In this document: piece by piece, positions 7,428-58,897 of the stretch
Numbering within the stretch: position 1 is the stretch's first letter
How the letters are laid out: each line of letters starts with the position of its first letter
From: Mycobacteroides salmoniphilum
GTDB lineage: Bacteria; Actinomycetota; Actinomycetes; Mycobacteriales; Mycobacteriaceae
Direction of reading: 5' to 3'
Assembly: GCF_004924335.1 (NCBI RefSeq)
Contig: NZ_CP024633.1
Location: 3,968,001 to 4,032,000 of the forward strand
Length of the DNA stretch: 64,000 nt
The notes under the pieces: generated by a model
Databases searched by the model: none
What the model was told of the DNA's origin: nothing
The model's input: only the letters and a program-made list of their open reading frames with translations
Translations under genes and position numbers: made by a program

Positions 7428-10385
7428 TTAGCCGTTGAACTTCGGCAGCTCGGTGGTCGGATCGTCATCGCCGAGTCGAGCCGCGGCGGGCGGTGCCGGG
7501 CGGGCGCCCGCGGGCTCCAGCAGAGCACTCGGCGGTCGCGGCCGTACTCGCTGCGGCCACCAGAACCACCGGCCCAGGAGCGCCGCGATGGACGGAGTCA
7601 TGAACGAGCGCACGATCAGTGTGTCGAACAATAGGCCCAGCCCGATGGTGGTGCCGATCTGGCCGATGATCTGCAGATCGCTGACGACCATCGAGGCCAT
7701 GGTGGCCGCGAACACCAATCCCGCTGATGTGACGACCTTTCCAGTGCCGCCCATCGCGCGGATGATGCCCGTATTCAGCCCCGCACTCAGCTCCTCTTTC
7801 ATCCGAGAGACAAGCAGCAGGTTGTAGTCGGACCCCACCGCCAACAGGATGATCACGGACATCGCCAGCACCATCCAGTGCAGACTGATGCCAAGGATGT
7901 ACTGCCACAGCAGCACCGACAGGCCAAAGGACGCGCCCAGCGAGAGCGCCACCGTACCGACGATCACCAGCGCCGCGATGAAGCTCCGGGTGGTAATGAG
8001 CATGATGATGAACACCAGACAGATCGCTGCGATGCCCGCGATCAGCAGGTCATAGGTCGAGCCGTCCTTCCAATCCTTCGCGGTTGACGCGGCACCGGCG
8101 AGGTAGATCTTGCCCCCCACCAGAGGTGTTCCCTTGAGCGCCTCCTCTGCCGCGTTCTGGATCTGCTCGATCCGGGTAATGCCCTCCGGCGACATCGGAT
8201 CACCATTATGGGAAATGATGAACCGCACCGTCTTTCCGTCCGGCGACAGGAATGAACTCATCGCACGCTGGAAGTCGGGGTTTTTGAACACTTCTGGAGG
8301 CAGGAAGAACGAATCGTCGTTCTTGGAGGCATCGAAGGCCTGCCCCATGGCCATCACGTCATTGGTGGATTCGTCCATCGAAGCGAACTGCCCGGACATG
8401 GTGGCGTACATGGTGAGCACCGAGGTTCGCATGCTCTGCATGACCTCGATCATCTGAGGGAACTGGACGAGCAGCTGCGGCATGATGGCGTCCAGCTGAT
8501 CCATGTCCTTGACCAGAACCATCAGCCCGTCGTCAAGCGCGTCGACTCCGTCCATCGCATCGAAGATCGACCTGATCGAAAAGCAGATGGGGATGTCGAA
8601 ACAGTGCTTTTCCCAATAGAAGTAGTTGCGGATCGGTCGAAGGAAGTCGTCGAACAGCGCAATGCTGCCGCGCAAGTCGTCGGTGAGTTGCTGCACCTCA
8701 TGCGTATGGGCCGTCATTCGGTGTGTGGTCTCGGACATCTTCTTCATCACGAGGTACGTACGCTGCATCGTCGCGATCATCTTCGACATGTCCTCGGCCT
8801 GCTGTTGCATGTCGGCGATGCGCTTCTTCTGGAATCGAGTCGCCTGAACCTGGCCGGCGCTTTGCAAGCTGAGCAAGAAGGGCACCGATGTGTTGGCGAT
8901 CGGCGTTCCCTCGGGGCGGGTAATCCCCTGCACCCTCGACACCCCACGCACCTTGAAAATGGCCTTCGCCACCTTGTTCAACACCAGAAAGTCGGCAGGG
9001 TTCCGGAGATCCCGGTCGGTTTCGATCAACAACACGTCGGGCGTCAGGCGCGACTCGGAGAAGTGACGTTGTGCGGCAGCGAATCCCTGATTGGCCGGGA
9101 TATCACCGGAGATGTACAGCCGATCGTTATAGCTCGTCTTGTACCCCGGCAGCGTGGATAGTCCAACCAATGCCACTGCCAACGAGGCGACCAGGATGGG
9201 TGCGGGCCAGCGGACGACTGCGGTACCCAGCGCACGCCACCGCTGAACCCGCAGCTTGCGCTTGGGTTCGAGCAGTCCGAATCGGCTGGCCACCACAATC
9301 CCCGCAGGAACCAGGGTGACCGCGACCGCGACGGCCGCCAGCATTCCGATGGCGCACGGGATTCCCATGGTTTGGAAGTAGGGCAGCCGCGTGAAATGTA
9401 GACACAGAATGGCTCCGGCGATGGTCAGTCCGGAGGCCAAGACCACGGGAGCCACGCTGCGATATGTGGTGTAGTAGGCCGTTTCCCGGTCTTCACCGGC
9501 CTGGCGGGCCTCTTGATATCGACCGAAGAAGAAGATCCCGTAATCGGTGCCGGCGGCAATGCTCAAGAAAACCAGCATGTTGACGGCGAACGTCGACAAC
9601 ACGAAAACATCGTGGTAGCCGAGAAACGCCACAATGCCGCGGGCCGCGGCCAATTCGACACCCACCATGATCAGCAGCAGGATCACCGTGACCACAGAGC
9701 GATAGAGGATCAACAGCAACGTGAAGATGATGACCACGGTGACCGCGGTGATCTTCAGAATCGATTTGTTGCCCGCATGCTGCATATCCGAGGCGAGCGG
9801 CGCCGCACCGGCCACATAGACCTTGACGTCGGCAGGAGCCGCAGGCGACGTCCGATTGACGATCTCGCGGATCGCGGCGACCGATTCGTCCCCCAGGGCG
9901 GTGCCTTGATTACCGACGAGATTCAACTGCACGTATGCAGCCTTCTCGTCGGGACTCTGCACACTCGAGGACGTCAGCCGATCGCCCCACAGATCCTGCA
10001 CGTGCTCTACGTGTTTGGGATCGTTACGCAGCTCACGGATCAGTCCGGCGTAGTACGCATGCGCGTCCTCGCCGAGTGGCGCCTTCCCCTCGAGCACGAT
10101 CATCGCGGAGCTGTCCGAGTTCGATTCGTTGAAGTCCTTGCCCATGCGCATGATGGCCTTGACCGCCGGCGCATCCTGCGGCATGAGCGACACCGACCGC
10201 GCTTCCGCGACGTTTTCCAACGCGGGGATCGCCTTGGCCCAGTCCCAACTGACCGACGCCAACGTCGTATACAGAATCAGCGCCAGCCAGCCCAGGATGA
10301 TCAGGGGCGACAGGTTTCGTATTGTTCGCGCGATGAACGGCCGCGAATGCGCTGAGTTTGTCTCAGCACTCATACCCGGTCTCAT
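7428..10385 (-). CDS. mmpL4b: MmpL4b, RND-family GPL exporter
   Basis: Inner-membrane RND transporter of 985 residues that with MmpL4a and MmpS4 moves GPL or its precursor to the cell surface. The N-terminal membrane segment [14 protein letters not shown] is followed by a large periplasmic domain containing [19 protein letters not shown]. Membrane clusters contain [18 protein letters not shown] and [17 protein letters not shown], the two conserved MmpL blocks in which Asp-Tyr pairs carry protons. The frame stays open past 10385, but the ATG at 10385 is the start: it overlaps the mmpL4a stop as TGATG, with AGAGGA just upstream. The gene is intact. Loss of GPL transport in the abscessus complex gives rough colonies. 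Confidence 0.95.
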
Positions 10386-13264
10386 CAGTTCCTCTGCAGC
10401 ACGGAGCGGACGAGGCGCGGTCCCTTCCACCCGTGCACCGCACCGACCGGCCGGGGAGACACCTGCAGTGGCCACCAGAACCACCGGCCCAGGAGGGCAG
10501 CGATGGCCGGCGTCATGAACGCTCGCACAATCAAGGTGTCGAACAACAGGCCCAAGCCGATCGTGGTTCCCACCTGCCCAAGGGTGAGCAAGTCGCTGAC
10601 GATCATGGAGCCCATGGTGGCCGCGAAGACCAGGCCGGCGGCGGTCACAACCTTGCCGGTACCACCCATCGCTCGGATGATGCCCGTATTGAGGCCGGCG
10701 CCCAACTCCTCTTTCATGCGCGAGACAAGCAGCAGGTTGTAGTCGGACCCCACCGCGAGCAGCACGATGACCGACATGGCCAACACCACCCAGTTGATCT
10801 GGATGCCGCAAATGTGTTGCCAGACAAGAACGGACAGACCGAACGACGCGCCCATCGACAACGCCACGGTTCCGACGATCACCAGGGCCGCGACCAAGCT
10901 CCGCGTCATCAACAACATGATGATGAAGATGAGGCACAGCGCCGCAACACCGGCGATCAAGAGATCGTATTTCGATCCGTCGACCAGCTCACTGACCCCT
11001 GCCGCCGTACCCGCCAGAGAGAGCTTGGCGTGCTCCAGCGGGGTTCCCTTGAGCGCTTCCTCCGCGGCGGTCTTGATCGGCTCCACCCGCGAAATGCCTT
11101 CGGGTGTCGCGGGATCTCCGCGCTGAGATATCAGCATGCGCGTGGACTTGCCGTCGGGCGACATGAAGATCTTCATGACCCGCTTGAAGTCCTTGTTGTT
11201 CAGAACATCCGGCGGCAGATAGAAGGAGTCATCGTTCTTCGACGCGTCGAACGCCTTGCCCATCGCCGTCGAGTTCTCGGTGGATTCATCCATCTGGGCG
11301 AAGATGCCGGACATCGTGCTGTGCATCGTCAGCATCGATTCGCGCGTGCTCTTCATGGTGTCGATCATCACGGGGAACTGCTCGAGCAGCTGCGGCATCA
11401 GCCTGTCCAGCTCGTCAAGATCGCCCACCAGAGTCTGCATCTTGTCGGTCACCTGGTCGACACCGTCGAGCGCATCGAAGATCGACCTGATCGAAAAGCA
11501 GATGGGAATGTCGAAGCAGTGCTTCTCCCAGTAGAAGTAGTTACGGATCGGCCGCCAGAAGTCTTCGAAATTCTCGATGTGGTCCCGCAGCGTGGACATA
11601 TCTTTCTGAAGATCGTGCGTGGTGCTGACCATCCGGTGAGTCGTCGCCACCATCTGTTTCATCAGATCGAACATGCGCTGCATGAGCGCGATGGTCGTTC
11701 CCATGTCATCGGCCTGCTTGAGCATGTCGTCCATGCGCGCGCGCTGGAACGGCAGGCTCAATCGCTGGCTCGCATTCGACATGCTGAGCATGAAGGGCAC
11801 CGACGAGTGCTCGATCTGCGTTCCCTCGGGACGCGTGATGGACTGCACGTTGGCGATGCCGGGTACTGCGAACACCGCCTTGGCCAGCCGGTTCAACACC
11901 AGCAGATCGGCGGAGTTGCGCATATCGTGATTGGCCTCGACCAACAGGATGTCGGGCGTCGACATTTTCGATTCCGGGAAGTGCCGTGAAGCGGCGACGA
12001 GTCCCTGGACCGCGGGGATGTCCTGCGGTATGTACTTCGCGTCGGTATAGCTGGGGTTGTATCCCGGCAGCGTCAAGAGCCCGATGAGCGAGATCGCCAC
12101 CGTCCCGGCGAGAATCGGTCCGGGCCAGCGCACGATCGCGGTGCCCAGCCGCCGCCAGCGGCGCGTCGTCACCTGCCGCTTGGGATCGAACAGCCCGAAG
12201 CGACTACCCGCGGCGATGCAGGCCGGTACCAGGGTGAGCGCCACCGCCACCGCGACCAGGATGCCCACCGCGCCCGGGATGCCCAGCGGCTTGAAGTACG
12301 GCAGCCGGGTGAAGTGCAGACACGCGATCGCACCCGCGATGGTCAGGCCGGATGCCAGGACGACCTTGGCCACCCCGCGGTAGGCGGTGTAGTAAGCGGT
12401 CTGGCGGTCCTCGCCCGCCTGGCGCGCCTCCTGATACCGCCCGGTGAAGAAGATTCCATAGTCCGTACCTGCGGCAATACCCACAGACACCAGCAGGTTG
12501 ACGACGAAGGTGGTCAGACCCACGATCCCGTGCATGCCGAGGAATGCGACGAGTCCTCGCGCAACCTGCAGCTCGATGCCGACGGTGAACAGCAAGATGA
12601 TGACCGTGATGAAGGACCGGTAGAGCAGGAGCAGCATCAGGAAAATCACGCCGACACTCACCAGAGTGATGAGGACGACCGTCCGGTTTCCGCTCTCCGA
12701 CATATCGGAGACGACGGCCGCGGGACCCGTGACATAGGTCTTGACCCCCGGCGGCAGCCCCGGAGTGTTCTTGACGATCTTCTGGACGGCTTCCACGGAT
12801 TCGTTCGCGTCGGCCTGACCAAAGCGTCCGGTGAGATTCAATTGCACATACGCGGCTTTTCCATCAGCACTCTGGGCGGCACCCGCGGTGAGCGAGTCAC
12901 CCCAAAAGTCCTGGATGTGCTGCACATGTTTCGGGTCGTCTTTCAATTGACGGACGACGGCGTCGTAATACTTGTGCGCGTCGTCGCCGAGGGGGTTCTC
13001 ACCCTCGAGCACGATCACCGCGACACTCTCGGAATTGGATTCCTGGAAGACCTTCCCCATCTGCGTCATCGCTTTGACGGAGGGCGCATCCGGTGGGCTG
13101 AGGGAGACCGAATGTTCTCTTTCGACGATCTCCAGTGGCGGCACCTTGACGGTCAGCACGACAGTGATCGCAAGCCAGCCCAGGATAATGAATACCGCAC
13201 CCTTGCGGATAATGGTCGCCATTATCGGCCGGTGTGATTGACCTTTGCCGCCGTCCTCGCTCAT
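10385..13264 (-). CDS. mmpL4a: MmpL4a, RND-family GPL exporter
   Basis: Inner-membrane RND transporter of 959 residues, paralogue of the adjacent MmpL4b. It has [20 protein letters not shown] before the first membrane helix, the [19 protein letters not shown] block in the periplasmic part, [18 protein letters not shown], and [18 protein letters not shown] in the C-terminal membrane bundle. An ATG at 13264 forms an ATGA overlap with the mmpS4 stop, with GAAGG just upstream, so it is preferred to the ATG at 13282. The stop overlaps the mmpL4b start. The frame is complete with no interruption. Confidence 0.95.
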
Positions 13265-55146: not shown

Positions 55147-56688
55147 GTGAGCACCCCGGAAGACGCAACGGTCACTCAGCTGCTGGCGAGCCTGGCCGAT
55201 GTCGAGGACCGGGGGCTGCACTTCGAAGGTTCGTTCACGCCGTGGCGTGATCATGTGGCCGAAAGTCGCCGCCTGGCTTCGGTATTGCGCGCCCGGCTGG
55301 ATCCTTCGAAACCCCCGCATGTCGGTGTGCTGCTGGAGAACACGCCGGCGTTCTCGTATCTGTTGGGCGCCGCGGCACTCGGCGGACTGGTACTGGTGGG
55401 CCTCAATCCCACCCGGCGCGGCAGCGCGTTGCGGCGAGACGTTGACTTGGCCGACTGTCAGCTGATACTCACCGATTCGGCGAGCGCTCCCCTGCTGGAT
55501 GGAGTCGATCACATCGACATCGATTCCCTCGCTGGGCAATCCGCAGCGCCGGTGGATGTTCCCGACATTCGGCCGGATGACCTGTTCATGCTCATCTTCA
55601 CTTCGGGCACCAGCGGCGACCCCAAGGCCGTCCAGATCACCCACGCCAAGGTTGCCTCTGCGGGAATCATGCTGTCCTCGCGCTTCGGCCTCGGTCCGGC
55701 GGATGTCTGTTACCTATCGATGCCGATGTTCCATTCCAACGCGGTGCTCGCGGGCTGGTCGGTTGCGCTCGCGGCGGGAGCGTCGATTGCACTGCGGCGC
55801 AGATTCTCCGCCTCGGGCTTCCTGGACGACGTCCGCAGGTACGGAGCCACATACGCCAACTACGTGGGCAAGCCCATGTCGTATGTGCTGGCGACACCGG
55901 AACAGCCCGATGACGCCGAGAACCCGTTGAAGATCATGTACGGCAACGAAGCCGCCGCTGGGGACACCGATCGATTCGCACAACGGTTCGGCGCGTTCGT
56001 TATCGACGGATTTGGTTCGACCGAGGGAGGCGTCGCACTGGGGTGGGCACCCGGTACTCCCCCGGGCGCGATCGGGCCGCTCACTCCCGACGTCCGCATC
56101 CTGGATATCGAGACCGGAGAGCCCTGCCCCCCGGCAGTTTTCGACGGTAGCGGCAAGGTGGTAAATGCCGCACAGGCCACCGGCGAGCTGGTGAACATCG
56201 CGGGACCCGGGCGATTCACCGGCTACTACAAGAACCCCGAGGCCGATGCCGAACGCATGGTCGAGGGTAAGTACCGCAGCGGCGACCTCGCCTACGCCGA
56301 CGAGAACGGATATGTGTATTTCGCCGGACGCCTGGGAGACTGGCTACGCGTCGACGGCGAGAACCTGGGCACCGCCCCCATTGAGCGGGTACTACTGCGC
56401 CATCCGGACATCACCGAGGTCGCCGTCTACGGGATCCCCGACCCCACCGTGGGCGATCGGATCATGGCGGCACTGGTGGTACGCAACGGTTTCCAGCCGT
56501 CCGAACTCGGCGGATTCCTGACCGCCCAAGAGGATCTCGGCCCCAAACAATGGCCCGCACTTATCAGGGTGAGCCAGACTCTGCCACGTACCGCGACGTT
56601 CAAGGTGATCAAGCGTCAGCTGTCCGCCGAGGCGTTGGAGACCAGCGACCCGCTGTGGCGGTTGAGTGACGGGGCATATATCCCATAG
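55147..56688 (+). CDS. fadD17: Acyl-CoA synthetase FadD17
   Basis: ANL-family acyl-CoA ligase of 513 residues activating short sterol side-chain acids. P-loop LIFTSGTSGDPKAVQITH (A3), DGFGSTEGGVALGW (A5), YRSGDLAYADENGYVYFAGR with DWLRVDGENLG (A7-A8), and a final Lys in TATFKVIKRQL (A10). GTG at 55147 is 9 bases after fadE27. The stop lies 6 bases before a 56-bp palindromic element. Confidence 0.93.
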   Translation: MSTPEDATVTQLLASLADVEDRGLHFEGSFTPWRDHVAESRRLASVLRARLDPSKPPHVGVLLENTPAFSYLLGAAALGGLVLVGLNPTRRGSALRRDVDLADCQLILTDSASAPLLDGVDHIDIDSLAGQSAAPVDVPDIRPDDLFMLIFTSGTSGDPKAVQITHAKVASAGIMLSSRFGLGPADVCYLSMPMFHSNAVLAGWSVALAAGASIALRRRFSASGFLDDVRRYGATYANYVGKPMSYVLATPEQPDDAENPLKIMYGNEAAAGDTDRFAQRFGAFVIDGFGSTEGGVALGWAPGTPPGAIGPLTPDVRILDIETGEPCPPAVFDGSGKVVNAAQATGELVNIAGPGRFTGYYKNPEADAERMVEGKYRSGDLAYADENGYVYFAGRLGDWLRVDGENLGTAPIERVLLRHPDITEVAVYGIPDPTVGDRIMAALVVRNGFQPSELGGFLTAQEDLGPKQWPALIRVSQTLPRTATFKVIKRQLSAEALETSDPLWRLSDGAYIP

Positions 56689-56694
56689 CACCGC

Positions 56695-56750
56695 CGAGTG
56701 TGCCGATCCGGTCGAAATCTCGCCAATGTTCGACACTATCCACACACTCG
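56695..56750 (+). repeat. 56-bp palindromic element, left copy
   Basis: Outer arms CGAGTGTG/CACACTCG and inner arms GTCGAA (56711-56716)/TTCGAC (56729-56734) are perfect inverted repeats. They enclose symmetrical 8-base internal loops and a 12-base apical loop. It differs from the right copy (57645-57700) at one base, A at 56742. Confidence 0.92.
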
Positions 56751-56784
56751 AGAGGCTGTCGGTGGTCGGTGCAAGGCTGCCATT

Positions 56785-57642
56785 ATGGGGGACGTACCGT
56801 GGCCGTTCATCAGGGATGAGGCGCTCGCGAATCATCTGATCACTGGGTACGCCCTCCGCGGATTCACCGCGCTTTACCCCGCCGTATATGTGCCGCCGAG
56901 TGCCGAAGTCACACCGCTCAAGCGAGCCGAAGCGGCATGGCTATGGTCGAGGCGCCATGGTGTGCTTGCCGGCATATCCGCGGCCGCCGTCCATGGCACA
57001 AAATGGTTGCCACCGAGCGGTCCCGCCGAACTCATCCATACCAATCGTCGTGCTCCGCAGGACATTTCGGTATGGAGCGACCGTCTGCGCCGTGACGAGC
57101 AGACGGTCATCAACGGACTGCCCGTAACCACGCCCGCACGTACCGCGTTCGACATCGGACGACGCACCACGGTTGACCTGGCAATAGAACGTCTCGACGC
57201 CTTGATGAACGCCACCGGAACGTCCGTCGCCGACATCGAGACCGTCGTGGCACGGCACCGGGGTGCGCGAGGTCTGACCAGGCTCGCTCATGTCCTCGAC
57301 CTGGTAAACGGCGGCGCAGAGTCACCCTGGGAGACACGCACCAGACTCATCGTGGTGCGCGCGGGCTTTACGGCTCCACAAACTCAGCTCGTTGTGCGTA
57401 ACCGATTCGGCGACTTCGTCGCCCGCCTCGATATGGGATGGAAAGACCACAAAGTGGGTATCGAGTTCGACGGTGCCCAACATTGGACGGATGCAGGCCA
57501 ACGCTCCCGCGATATCGATCGCGCCAAAGAACTGGCAGACGAAGGGTGGCGCATCGTTCGCGTGAGCTCCGACATGGTGCGCCATCGTGCGGGAACGATC
57601 GTCGCCAGGGTCGCGGAAGCATTCGCCACACCGACCGCGTAA
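56785..57642 (+). CDS. AbiEi-like N-terminal and DUF559 (Vsr-like) endonuclease-domain protein
   Basis: A 285-residue two-part protein. Residues 20-125 match the AbiEi antitoxin-like region found in many actinobacterial DUF559 proteins (RGFTALYPAVYVP, LAGISAAAVHG, then GLPVTTPARTAFDIGRR). Residues 178-265 form the DUF559/Vsr-like nuclease fold: ESPWETRTR, RLDMGWKDHKVGIEFDGAQH with D216, E227 and H233, then DIDRAKELADEGWRIVRV. All expected nuclease positions are kept, so it may be active. ATG at 56785 has only a weak AAGG site. It is flanked by palindromic repeats. No partner toxin gene is present. Confidence 0.82.
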   Translation: MGDVPWPFIRDEALANHLITGYALRGFTALYPAVYVPPSAEVTPLKRAEAAWLWSRRHGVLAGISAAAVHGTKWLPPSGPAELIHTNRRAPQDISVWSDRLRRDEQTVINGLPVTTPARTAFDIGRRTTVDLAIERLDALMNATGTSVADIETVVARHRGARGLTRLAHVLDLVNGGAESPWETRTRLIVVRAGFTAPQTQLVVRNRFGDFVARLDMGWKDHKVGIEFDGAQHWTDAGQRSRDIDRAKELADEGWRIVRVSSDMVRHRAGTIVARVAEAFATPTA

Positions 57643-57644
57643 GT

Positions 57645-57700
57645 CGAGTGTGCCGATCCGGTCGAAATCTCGCCAATGTTCGACACTATCCGCACACTCG
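57645..57700 (+). repeat. 56-bp palindromic element, right copy
   Basis: Same structure as 56695-56750, with G at 57692 instead of A. It begins 3 bases after the TAA of the DUF559 gene and ends 48 bases before the convergent nitronate monooxygenase gene, where it might also act as a transcription barrier. Confidence 0.92.
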
Positions 57701-57748
57701 GCGGCCCTGGGAGGCGCGCTAGCGAGGCTCCGGGAGTGGCGCGAGAAC

Positions 57749-58897
57749 CTACCCGCGGATCTGGTTCAGCCTGTCAACCGTGCTCTCGAAACCCGCCACC
57801 AGATCGGCCACGATGTCCGCAGCGGGCCGAATCTCATTCATCCGCCCGACGATCTGTCCCGCCGGGAAGCAGACCGTCTCCGGATCGTGTGCACGATTCA
57901 TCCGCTCATGGGCCCCGCTGACGAGGATGTTCTGCAGCGGCATGGGCAGCGGCGTCGGTGCGTCCTCGGCATCCCAGGCCTGCGTCCACTTGGTCTTCAG
58001 TAGTCGCGCGGGTTTCCCGGTGTAGATGCGAGTGCGCACGGTGTCACTGGAAGTCGCCTTCAGCAGTGCCTGCTGCACGACGGACTCGCCACCAGCGGTG
58101 ACGGTTCCGAGGTCATACTCGGCAGCGGTCAGCCAGATCGAGCCGGTCCAGACACCCGAGGCACCCAGCGCCAGGGCCGCGGCAGCCTGTCTGCCGCTTC
58201 CGATACCGCCCGCCGCCAGCACCGGGGCGCTGCCGTCAAGTGCGTCCACGATCTCCGGCCAGAGCACCATGGATGCCACGTCACCGGTGTGCCCACCGGC
58301 CTCATAGCCCTGGGCGACAACGATATCGACGCCGTTTTCGACATGTCTTCTGGCATGTTCGGCCTTACCCGCCAGTGCCGCGACCGGCACGCCATGTTCA
58401 TGGGCCTGGTCGATGACGTCCTTCGGCGGCGACCCGAGTGCATTGGCGATCAGCTTGATCGGATGCTTGAGCGCGACCTCCACATGCGAGCGTGCCACCG
58501 AATGCAGCCAGCCCAGCACACCGGCCGACTCGCGTTCGCCCGGCAGCGGTGGCACGCCCAACTCGGCAAGCGTCTTCTCTACGAAGTCCTTGTGTCCCTG
58601 TGGAATCAGCTTGTCGATATCCACTGCCGTGCCCTCGGTGGGCACCTTGGCCGGCATCACGATGTCGACACCGTACGGCTTGCCGTCGGTGTTCTCGTCC
58701 ATCCAGTTCAGGACCGCGTCCAACTCGTCGGGGTCGTTGAAGCGGACGCAACCAAGCACACCCATGCCGCCCGCGCGGCTGATGGCGGCGGCGACCTTCT
58801 CCGACGGCGTGAAACCGAATATGGGGTAACGGATTCCAAACCGCTCGCAGAGGTCGGTATGCATAGATGAGCCGCTTGCGCGAAGGCCATCAGGCAT
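57749..58897 (-). CDS. Nitronate monooxygenase (2-nitropropane dioxygenase) family protein
   Basis: FMN TIM-barrel oxidoreductase of 382 residues, the NPD/nitronate monooxygenase family, which in mycobacteria includes steroid-pathway members. CERFGIRYPIFGFTPSEKVA, GGMGVLG, IVVAQGYEAGGHTGDV and VLAAGGIGSGRQAAAALALGASGVWTGS are the conserved blocks. The first 11 residues MPDGLRASGSS come from a 33-bp repeat. The ATG at 58864 immediately after it (MHTDLCERFG) is the probable original start. It follows fadD19 by only 3 bases on the same strand and so is co-transcribed with it under KstR. Substrate unknown. Confidence 0.87.
   Translation of the reverse strand: MPDGLRASGSSMHTDLCERFGIRYPIFGFTPSEKVAAAISRAGGMGVLGCVRFNDPDELDAVLNWMDENTDGKPYGVDIVMPAKVPTEGTAVDIDKLIPQGHKDFVEKTLAELGVPPLPGERESAGVLGWLHSVARSHVEVALKHPIKLIANALGSPPKDVIDQAHEHGVPVAALAGKAEHARRHVENGVDIVVAQGYEAGGHTGDVASMVLWPEIVDALDGSAPVLAAGGIGSGRQAAAALALGASGVWTGSIWLTAAEYDLGTVTAGGESVVQQALLKATSSDTVRTRIYTGKPARLLKTKWTQAWDAEDAPTPLPMPLQNILVSGAHERMNRAHDPETVCFPAGQIVGRMNEIRPAADIVADLVAGFESTVDRLNQIRG
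58865..58897 (-). repeat. 33-bp start-codon repeat, single copy
   Basis: On the minus strand the unit starts with ATG, encodes MPDGLRASGSS, and is directly followed by another ATG at 58864. It has the same length, frame and core as the two plus-strand units at 21853-21918. Confidence 0.9.

Follow-up and report, generated by a model that had tools for sequence, protein, structure and literature searches.

REPtrons pair a repetitive extragenic palindrome (REP) with a REP-associated tyrosine transposase (RAYT, or TnpA-REP): a single gene is flanked by its own palindromes, which also occur alone, and, in the available parts of two accounts, enzyme and repeats co-evolve (PMC3733652, PMC8266576). 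The same layout is found in the 64,000-nucleotide stretch of Mycobacteroides salmoniphilum DNA analysed here (the window), where two near-identical 56-bp palindromes enclose a gene of the DUF559 family. We put the probability at roughly one half (about 0.52) that this unit is a single-gene homing-type cassette, palindrome-nuclease gene-palindrome, in which the nuclease targets the palindromes around its gene. The observed basis comprises the association of palindromes with DUF559 genes, unit-specific palindrome pairs, co-divergence of palindrome and protein, orthologous sites that are occupied, empty or swapped, concerted evolution at one of them, and the predicted fold.

RAYTs are HUH Y1 enzymes (PF01797), whereas the protein here is DUF559/MTES_1575-like and combines a Vsr/EDxHD-type part with an AbiEi part. 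Similarly, RAYT palindromes are GTAG-tagged and 20-40 bp long, whereas those described here are ~56 bp long with CGA ends (CGAGTGTG...CACACTCG in the window). Y1_Tnp, the RAYT-type transposase domain, had no match in seven of eight genomes, the window genome included. The likeness to REP-transposase units drawn in the first-pass annotation thus holds for the layout and fails for the enzyme.

The nuclease half is nearest in fold to the phage enzyme I-Bth0305I, an EDxHD homing endonuclease whose target, according to the available part of the source, spans nearly 60 bp (PMC3943268). I-Bth0305I is intron-borne, whereas the predicted nuclease here carries an AbiEi-type DNA-binding half, and its gene lies at intergenic sites of the chromosome, flanked by two palindromes that are both intact. 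As with homing endonucleases of the EDxHD/Vsr type, occupied and empty alleles exist at one site (7 vs 3 at site A, the window site; 1/4 occupied at site D). Unlike the AbiEi antitoxins known from type IV toxin-antitoxin systems, such as Rv2827c and the AbiEi of S. agalactiae, the unit has no adjacent AbiEii gene, includes a nuclease, and has palindromes on both sides and elsewhere. REPs tagged CGTC, for which no transposase is known, are likewise short palindromes mainly in unidirectional or convergent gaps (PMC3733652, available part). However, they are shorter than the window palindromes and bear another tag, and the main text of that paper contains neither "actinobacteri" nor "mycobacteri". 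Families of stem-loops in M. tuberculosis and in M. leprae are described in a 2008 survey (PMC2267715). A literature search covering few subscription journals, judged from the results listed, found no work joining DUF559 with palindromes or with AbiEi, and this kind of cassette is likely, though not certainly, new to the literature.

Organization of the window unit

The window genome (G000; G numbers denote genomes and L numbers loci) is closed and 4.78 Mb long, and its nearest named protein relatives belong to Mycobacteroides. The unit and its neighbours are arranged as follows.

56695..56750, no strand: left 56-bp palindrome, ends CGAGTGTG...CACACTCG, from sequence comparison and folding
56785..57642, + strand: gene for a 285-aa protein, AbiEi-type part ~1-175, predicted Vsr/EDxHD-type nuclease part ~178-285
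57645..57700, no strand: right 56-bp palindrome, 55/56 identical to the left one, direct orientation
55147..56688, + strand: fadD17-like AMP-binding enzyme, left neighbour, outside the cassette
57749..58897, - strand: nitronate monooxygenase, right neighbour, outside the cassette

Each structural element that the first-pass annotation had described was reproduced: two direct 56-bp repeats with 55/56 identity and nested 8- and 6-bp arms enclose an intact DUF559 gene. The outer arms pair at 8/8 positions and the inner arms (GTCGAA/TTCGAC) at 6/6; across the full arms, 17/22 and 18/22 positions pair in the two palindromes. When folded as single-stranded DNA, the palindromes were matched by 1/200 and 0/200 shuffles. 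The pair is the top direct 56-mer repeat of the whole window at <5 kb spacing, and the 21-base left arm occurs twice, vs a shuffle mean of 0.01 (<=3 mismatches). The gene runs from ATG (56785) to TAA (57642); a GTG at 56698 would give a longer frame, and the ATG is taken as the start because database homologues begin there. The left palindrome lies 34 bases before the ATG, and the right one begins at the third base past the stop. The neighbouring genes, fadD17-like (+) and nitronate monooxygenase (-), are convergent, and no AbiEii toxin gene lies beside the unit. TGTCGGTGG stands at window 56757-56765, just past the left palindrome, and the same sequence or a near variant was seen by eye inside several units; it is perhaps a promoter element.

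Pfam assigns the 285-aa protein to DUF559 (28.6 bits, cut-off 20.6), with MTES_1575 (37.9, cut-off 38.2) and AbiEi_1 (19.6, cut-off 22.2) just below threshold. The N-terminal part is predicted to have an AbiEi fold and the nuclease half a Vsr-like nuclease fold, and the predicted protein joins an AbiEi-type DNA-binding part to a nuclease of the Vsr/homing-endonuclease type. Residues E183, D216, H233 and D243 are invariant across 30 aligned family proteins and may represent the E, D, H, D catalytic motif of EDxHD enzymes. Databases name the gene's relatives DUF559, endonuclease domain-containing or hypothetical protein, without a role. At L219 (4953-5009, protein P0024), the frame enters the right palindrome, which codes for the C-terminal tail.

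Association of palindromes with DUF559 genes

Of the 148 genomes sampled in the genus, 146 contain relatives of the gene, and the genome richest in them has at least 16. Sixty loci were scored, a non-random sample of 58 from the best-scoring relatives among the matches listed plus two G000 paralogues; it holds some near-identical sister loci and excludes the window unit while including its G147 counterpart (L220). Palindromes were counted if 46-65 bp long, with >=7/8 outer and >=16/22 arm positions paired, and <=250 bp from the matched stretch. A palindrome was detected near 46 of the 60 genes, on both sides of 26 and on one side of 20. Palindrome density was ~19x higher beside the genes (72 in 30.0 kb) than elsewhere in these loci (58 in 452.3 kb), and the other intergenic gaps held 16 in 43.1 kb. 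In contrast, the control family DUF222/13E12, a multicopy nuclease, showed no enrichment (2 in 12.0 kb beside vs 6 in 47.8 kb away; 24/30 loci usable, 6 being too short), and one DUF222 gene had palindromes on both sides. In the control-run setup, DUF559 genes scored 4 with both sides, 16 with one and 8 with none of 28 (28/29 loci usable, 1 too short), at 1.79 vs 0.15 per kb; these values are lower than in the 60-locus count, probably because frame extension entered the palindromes. Palindromic borders at other DUF559 genes, which the first-pass annotation had proposed looking for, are therefore widespread, and its counter-case, a common repeat with no DUF559 link, fails. Close palindrome pairs in G028 and G078 likewise enclose a DUF559-type gene.

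The association extends beyond the genus. A homologue (E <=1e-15) was found in 23 of 296 genomes sampled across the phylum. Among 20 loci outside the genus (28-40% identity; scored with a 450-bp margin, the matches being partial), seven had palindromes on both sides, five on one and eight on neither. At the seven (L346, L349, L350, L357, L359, L367, L368), left and right copies look alike by eye. The orientation of the genes neighbouring a unit is also skewed, with 25/52 convergent vs 63/329 other gene pairs and 4/52 divergent vs 82/329 (heuristic gene calls; both neighbours called at 52/60 loci; left neighbour of L220 miscalled). Sites A-D, described below, are all convergent, judged from stop codons.

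Palindromes with CGAGTGTG/CACACTCG ends number ten in the window genome, every one 56 bp with 46-66 bp permitted, and a reversed control pattern had no match there. Across the genus, this type occurs in 98 of 148 genomes, mostly at 54-59 bp among the matches listed, vs three genomes for the control pattern.

Unit-specific palindrome types

Palindrome types vary widely from unit to unit, and the CGA-type ends differ elsewhere. Within a unit, however, the two copies match: in 21 two-sided units (five of 26 having been dropped as ortholog-like), left-right agreement averaged 34.2 vs 7.5 across units (0/10,000 permutations), and the own partner was the top-scoring palindrome in 16. Pairs are mainly direct and some are inverted, most clearly at L221. 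Palindrome similarity also follows protein similarity (r 0.315 in 58 non-redundant units, 0/2000 permutations as high), a correlation to which shared descent contributes. In partial correlation, palindrome similarity follows residues 8-110 (0.26) more closely than it follows the nuclease half (0.16).

Pairing is maintained while sequence changes. Among 45 non-redundant 56-mers, whose outer 8 bases were fixed by the search pattern, pairing at arm positions 9-12, 14 and 16-21 is far more frequent than in shuffles and involves 2-4 pair types; it is weaker at 13 and 15, and there is little of it in the middle 14 bases, with some at position 25. Such preserved symmetry fits either a two-fold protein target or a hairpin. 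Another type, that of site B, has 18 copies across four genomes, and the core of each is 45 bp long (40-58 permitted). Three of its pairs are spaced 944 bp apart; two are known units in G000 and G088, and the third, in G147, is known from spacing alone. G092 keeps two lone palindromes of this type although a different cassette occupies its site B.

Gain, loss and exchange of units

Four sites were compared among close relatives: a site may hold the unit, may lack it and retain a single palindrome, or may hold a different gene with different palindromes in its place, in one case flipped. Units have thus been gained, lost and exchanged with edges at the palindromes, in keeping with the mobility that the first-pass annotation suggested.

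Site A is occupied in 7/10 genomes read (G000, G092, D16Q14, D16R12, M. franklinii, LB1, CBMA 271). Of the three empty sites, that of D16Q13 has no palindrome, that of M. chelonae S00154 has one of 55 bp, and that of G088 also has one. Hence, the empty sites with one or no palindrome sought between fadD17 and the nitronate monooxygenase gene exist, and the arrangement is not fixed among relatives. In G088, a single palindrome precisely replaces palindrome-gene-palindrome between flanks 94 and 96% identical to those of G092. Its left end shows the alteration seen in the left copy of G092, and it continues into the right flank, as would be expected after recombination between the two copies. Loss is the simpler reading because most relatives have the gene. 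The recent event inferred in the first-pass annotation from repeat identity is not borne out: the gene is present in 7/10 relatives, its protein is 79-93% identical to the window copy, comparable to fadD17 (84-93%; nitronate monooxygenase 95-98%), and the repeats are homogenised, so the unit is old at this site. Two different site-A deletions (L235 ~7550, L240 ~7550) both retain CGAGTG, the palindrome's first six bases, a hint of a preferred break point.

Site D is occupied in one of four genomes: G088 has a unit, G092 and G000 have a single palindrome, and G147 has another palindrome. The right palindrome of G088 equals the single G092 copy (56/56), which makes gain beside a resident palindrome the simpler reading. 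At sites B and C, G088 and G092 carry different palindromes and divergent proteins (70 and 64% identity) between closely similar flanks (97.6/98.5% and 95.5/96.6%), with the gene on opposite strands at site C. L191/L192 resembles these swaps: its flanks are 88/87% identical and its proteins 65%, with the genes on opposite strands and the palindromes different. Protein identity is also below flank identity at, for example, L193/L227 and L177/L207. No clean target-site duplication was seen at the gain and loss sites read. Among the matches listed, L177, L179, L182, L185, L189, L198, L207, L210, L373 and L374 have flanking DNA common to units of many species, and a limited set of chromosomal slots thus seems to be reused within the genus.

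Concerted evolution and lone palindromes

At site A, left-right mismatches within six genomes are 1, 2, 4, 3, 9 and 10 (mean 4.8), whereas between genomes left-left and right-right mismatches average 13.1 and 11.3. The repeats have therefore been homogenised rather than freshly duplicated. There are exceptions, namely G092-D16R12 (right-right 3, vs 4 within D16R12) and LB1-franklinii (right-right 9, vs 10 within franklinii). The unpaired palindrome centre is identical within G000, G092 and D16R12 and 1-3 bases apart between them; pairing constraint alone is thus insufficient, and gene conversion would explain the pattern.

Eight lone-palindrome sites were aligned between G000 and G092 (L105 and L101 had no counterpart, and the G092 sites L109 and L076 were left out). 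One differs by precise presence or absence of 57 bp (L112/L403), one does so imprecisely (L106/L391), and two slots hold different types (L103/L385, L108/L387). L102 and L111 have the same palindrome type, yet diverged, and an extra gene in G000. That 529-aa PQQ_2-match gene (L102 284-1873, G000 ~1597.8-1599.4 kb) adjoins the palindrome and is absent at that site in G092. L099 (2462-5784, G117) has three palindromes. The first and second enclose a TetR-like frame and a 513-aa frame of DUF899/glyoxalase type, the second and third a broken DUF559 gene. Genes other than DUF559 may sometimes lie between palindromes.

Proposed mechanism and alternative explanations

For the homing-type cassette, we infer a route of binding, cleavage and repair. 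Probably as a dimer, the AbiEi-type half would bind both arms of its own palindrome, in or beside which the Vsr/EDxHD-type half would cut or nick. Break repair could then copy the cassette into a palindrome slot that lacks one, or convert one flanking palindrome to the sequence of the other. Alternatively, repair by recombination between the two palindromes would remove the cassette and leave one palindrome, and the vacated slot would be open to a later cassette of another type. Lone palindromes would consequently be both target slots and scars of former cassettes. It is about an even bet that such units form an unnamed class of one-gene mobile cassettes across Actinomycetota, REPtron look-alikes with an unrelated enzyme, in which an AbiEi-guided Vsr/EDxHD nuclease recognises its own ~56-bp palindromes, inserts or exchanges at slots, homogenises flanking copies and leaves type-specific scars. 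If true, this would be a new enzyme class for palindrome-based mobility and would explain the origin of a family of mycobacterial intergenic palindromes. It would also provide a large natural collection of nucleases matched to ~56-bp targets, with specificity readable by comparison, and make the spread of palindromic repeats in RAYT-lacking bacteria testable.

Several observations weigh against the homing-type cassette. Foldseek returned nothing below E 0.001. Fourteen of the 60 genes have no detected palindrome, and a few of the hairpins included in the count resemble chance matches or terminators (the right one of L189, which was kept, and the right one of L211). Four of the eight lone sites are conserved between G000 and G092. 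The site D gain left the resident palindrome unaltered with the new copy to its left, a poor fit to a cut at the palindrome centre. Among the 39 site pairs listed (of 125), protein divergence mostly resembles flank divergence, so residence is long and exchange occasional. Finally, a classic homing gene splits its target, whereas both palindromes here are intact, so self-cutting must somehow be avoided.

An unlikely alternative is that, as in REPtrons, the palindromes themselves are mobile: the DUF559 protein would help to copy them as hairpins, and its gene would be the resident enzyme gene between its own repeats. The palindromes do fold as hairpins and far outnumber genes of their type (for example, 34 with CGAGTGTG ends in G147), one lone 57-bp palindrome is precisely present in one and absent from the other of G092 and G000, and in seven of eight genomes, the window genome included, no Y1 transposase was found to act instead. 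However, exchange involves whole cassettes rather than palindromes alone, Vsr-type enzymes work on duplex DNA, and they are not known to carry out strand transfer. Less probable still is a regulatory role, in which an AbiEi-type autoregulator uses the palindromes as operators and/or they serve as terminators, and the gene is an ordinary, vertically kept defence or repair nuclease. AbiEi proteins autoregulate via inverted repeats (PMC7319586, available part), and both the enrichment of convergent gene pairs and the tracking of flanks by protein divergence in most of the site pairs listed would suit this role. Yet it leaves unexplained the matching second palindrome behind the gene, the lone copies elsewhere, pair homogenisation, and absence and replacement edges at palindromes; moreover, no T run follows either window hairpin, and a terminator scan limited to 3-8-base loops was blank.

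It is quite improbable that the DUF559 gene only rides along while the palindromes serve some other recombination activity or plain homologous recombination. Allele import by flank recombination could yield some swaps, and L099 has other genes between palindromes. A mere passenger would not be expected to co-diverge with its palindromes, to keep catalytic-type residues invariant in 30 aligned proteins, or to have palindromes on both sides at 29-35% protein identity, as seen in 7/20 loci outside the genus.

Other features of the window

Rfam gave a single match in 56500-57900, at 13.8 bits vs a gathering threshold of 50 (E 0.45). Elsewhere in the window, 8554-8609 and 11469-11524 form a 53/56 direct repeat within a longer similar stretch; it is not palindromic and is probably paralogous coding sequence.
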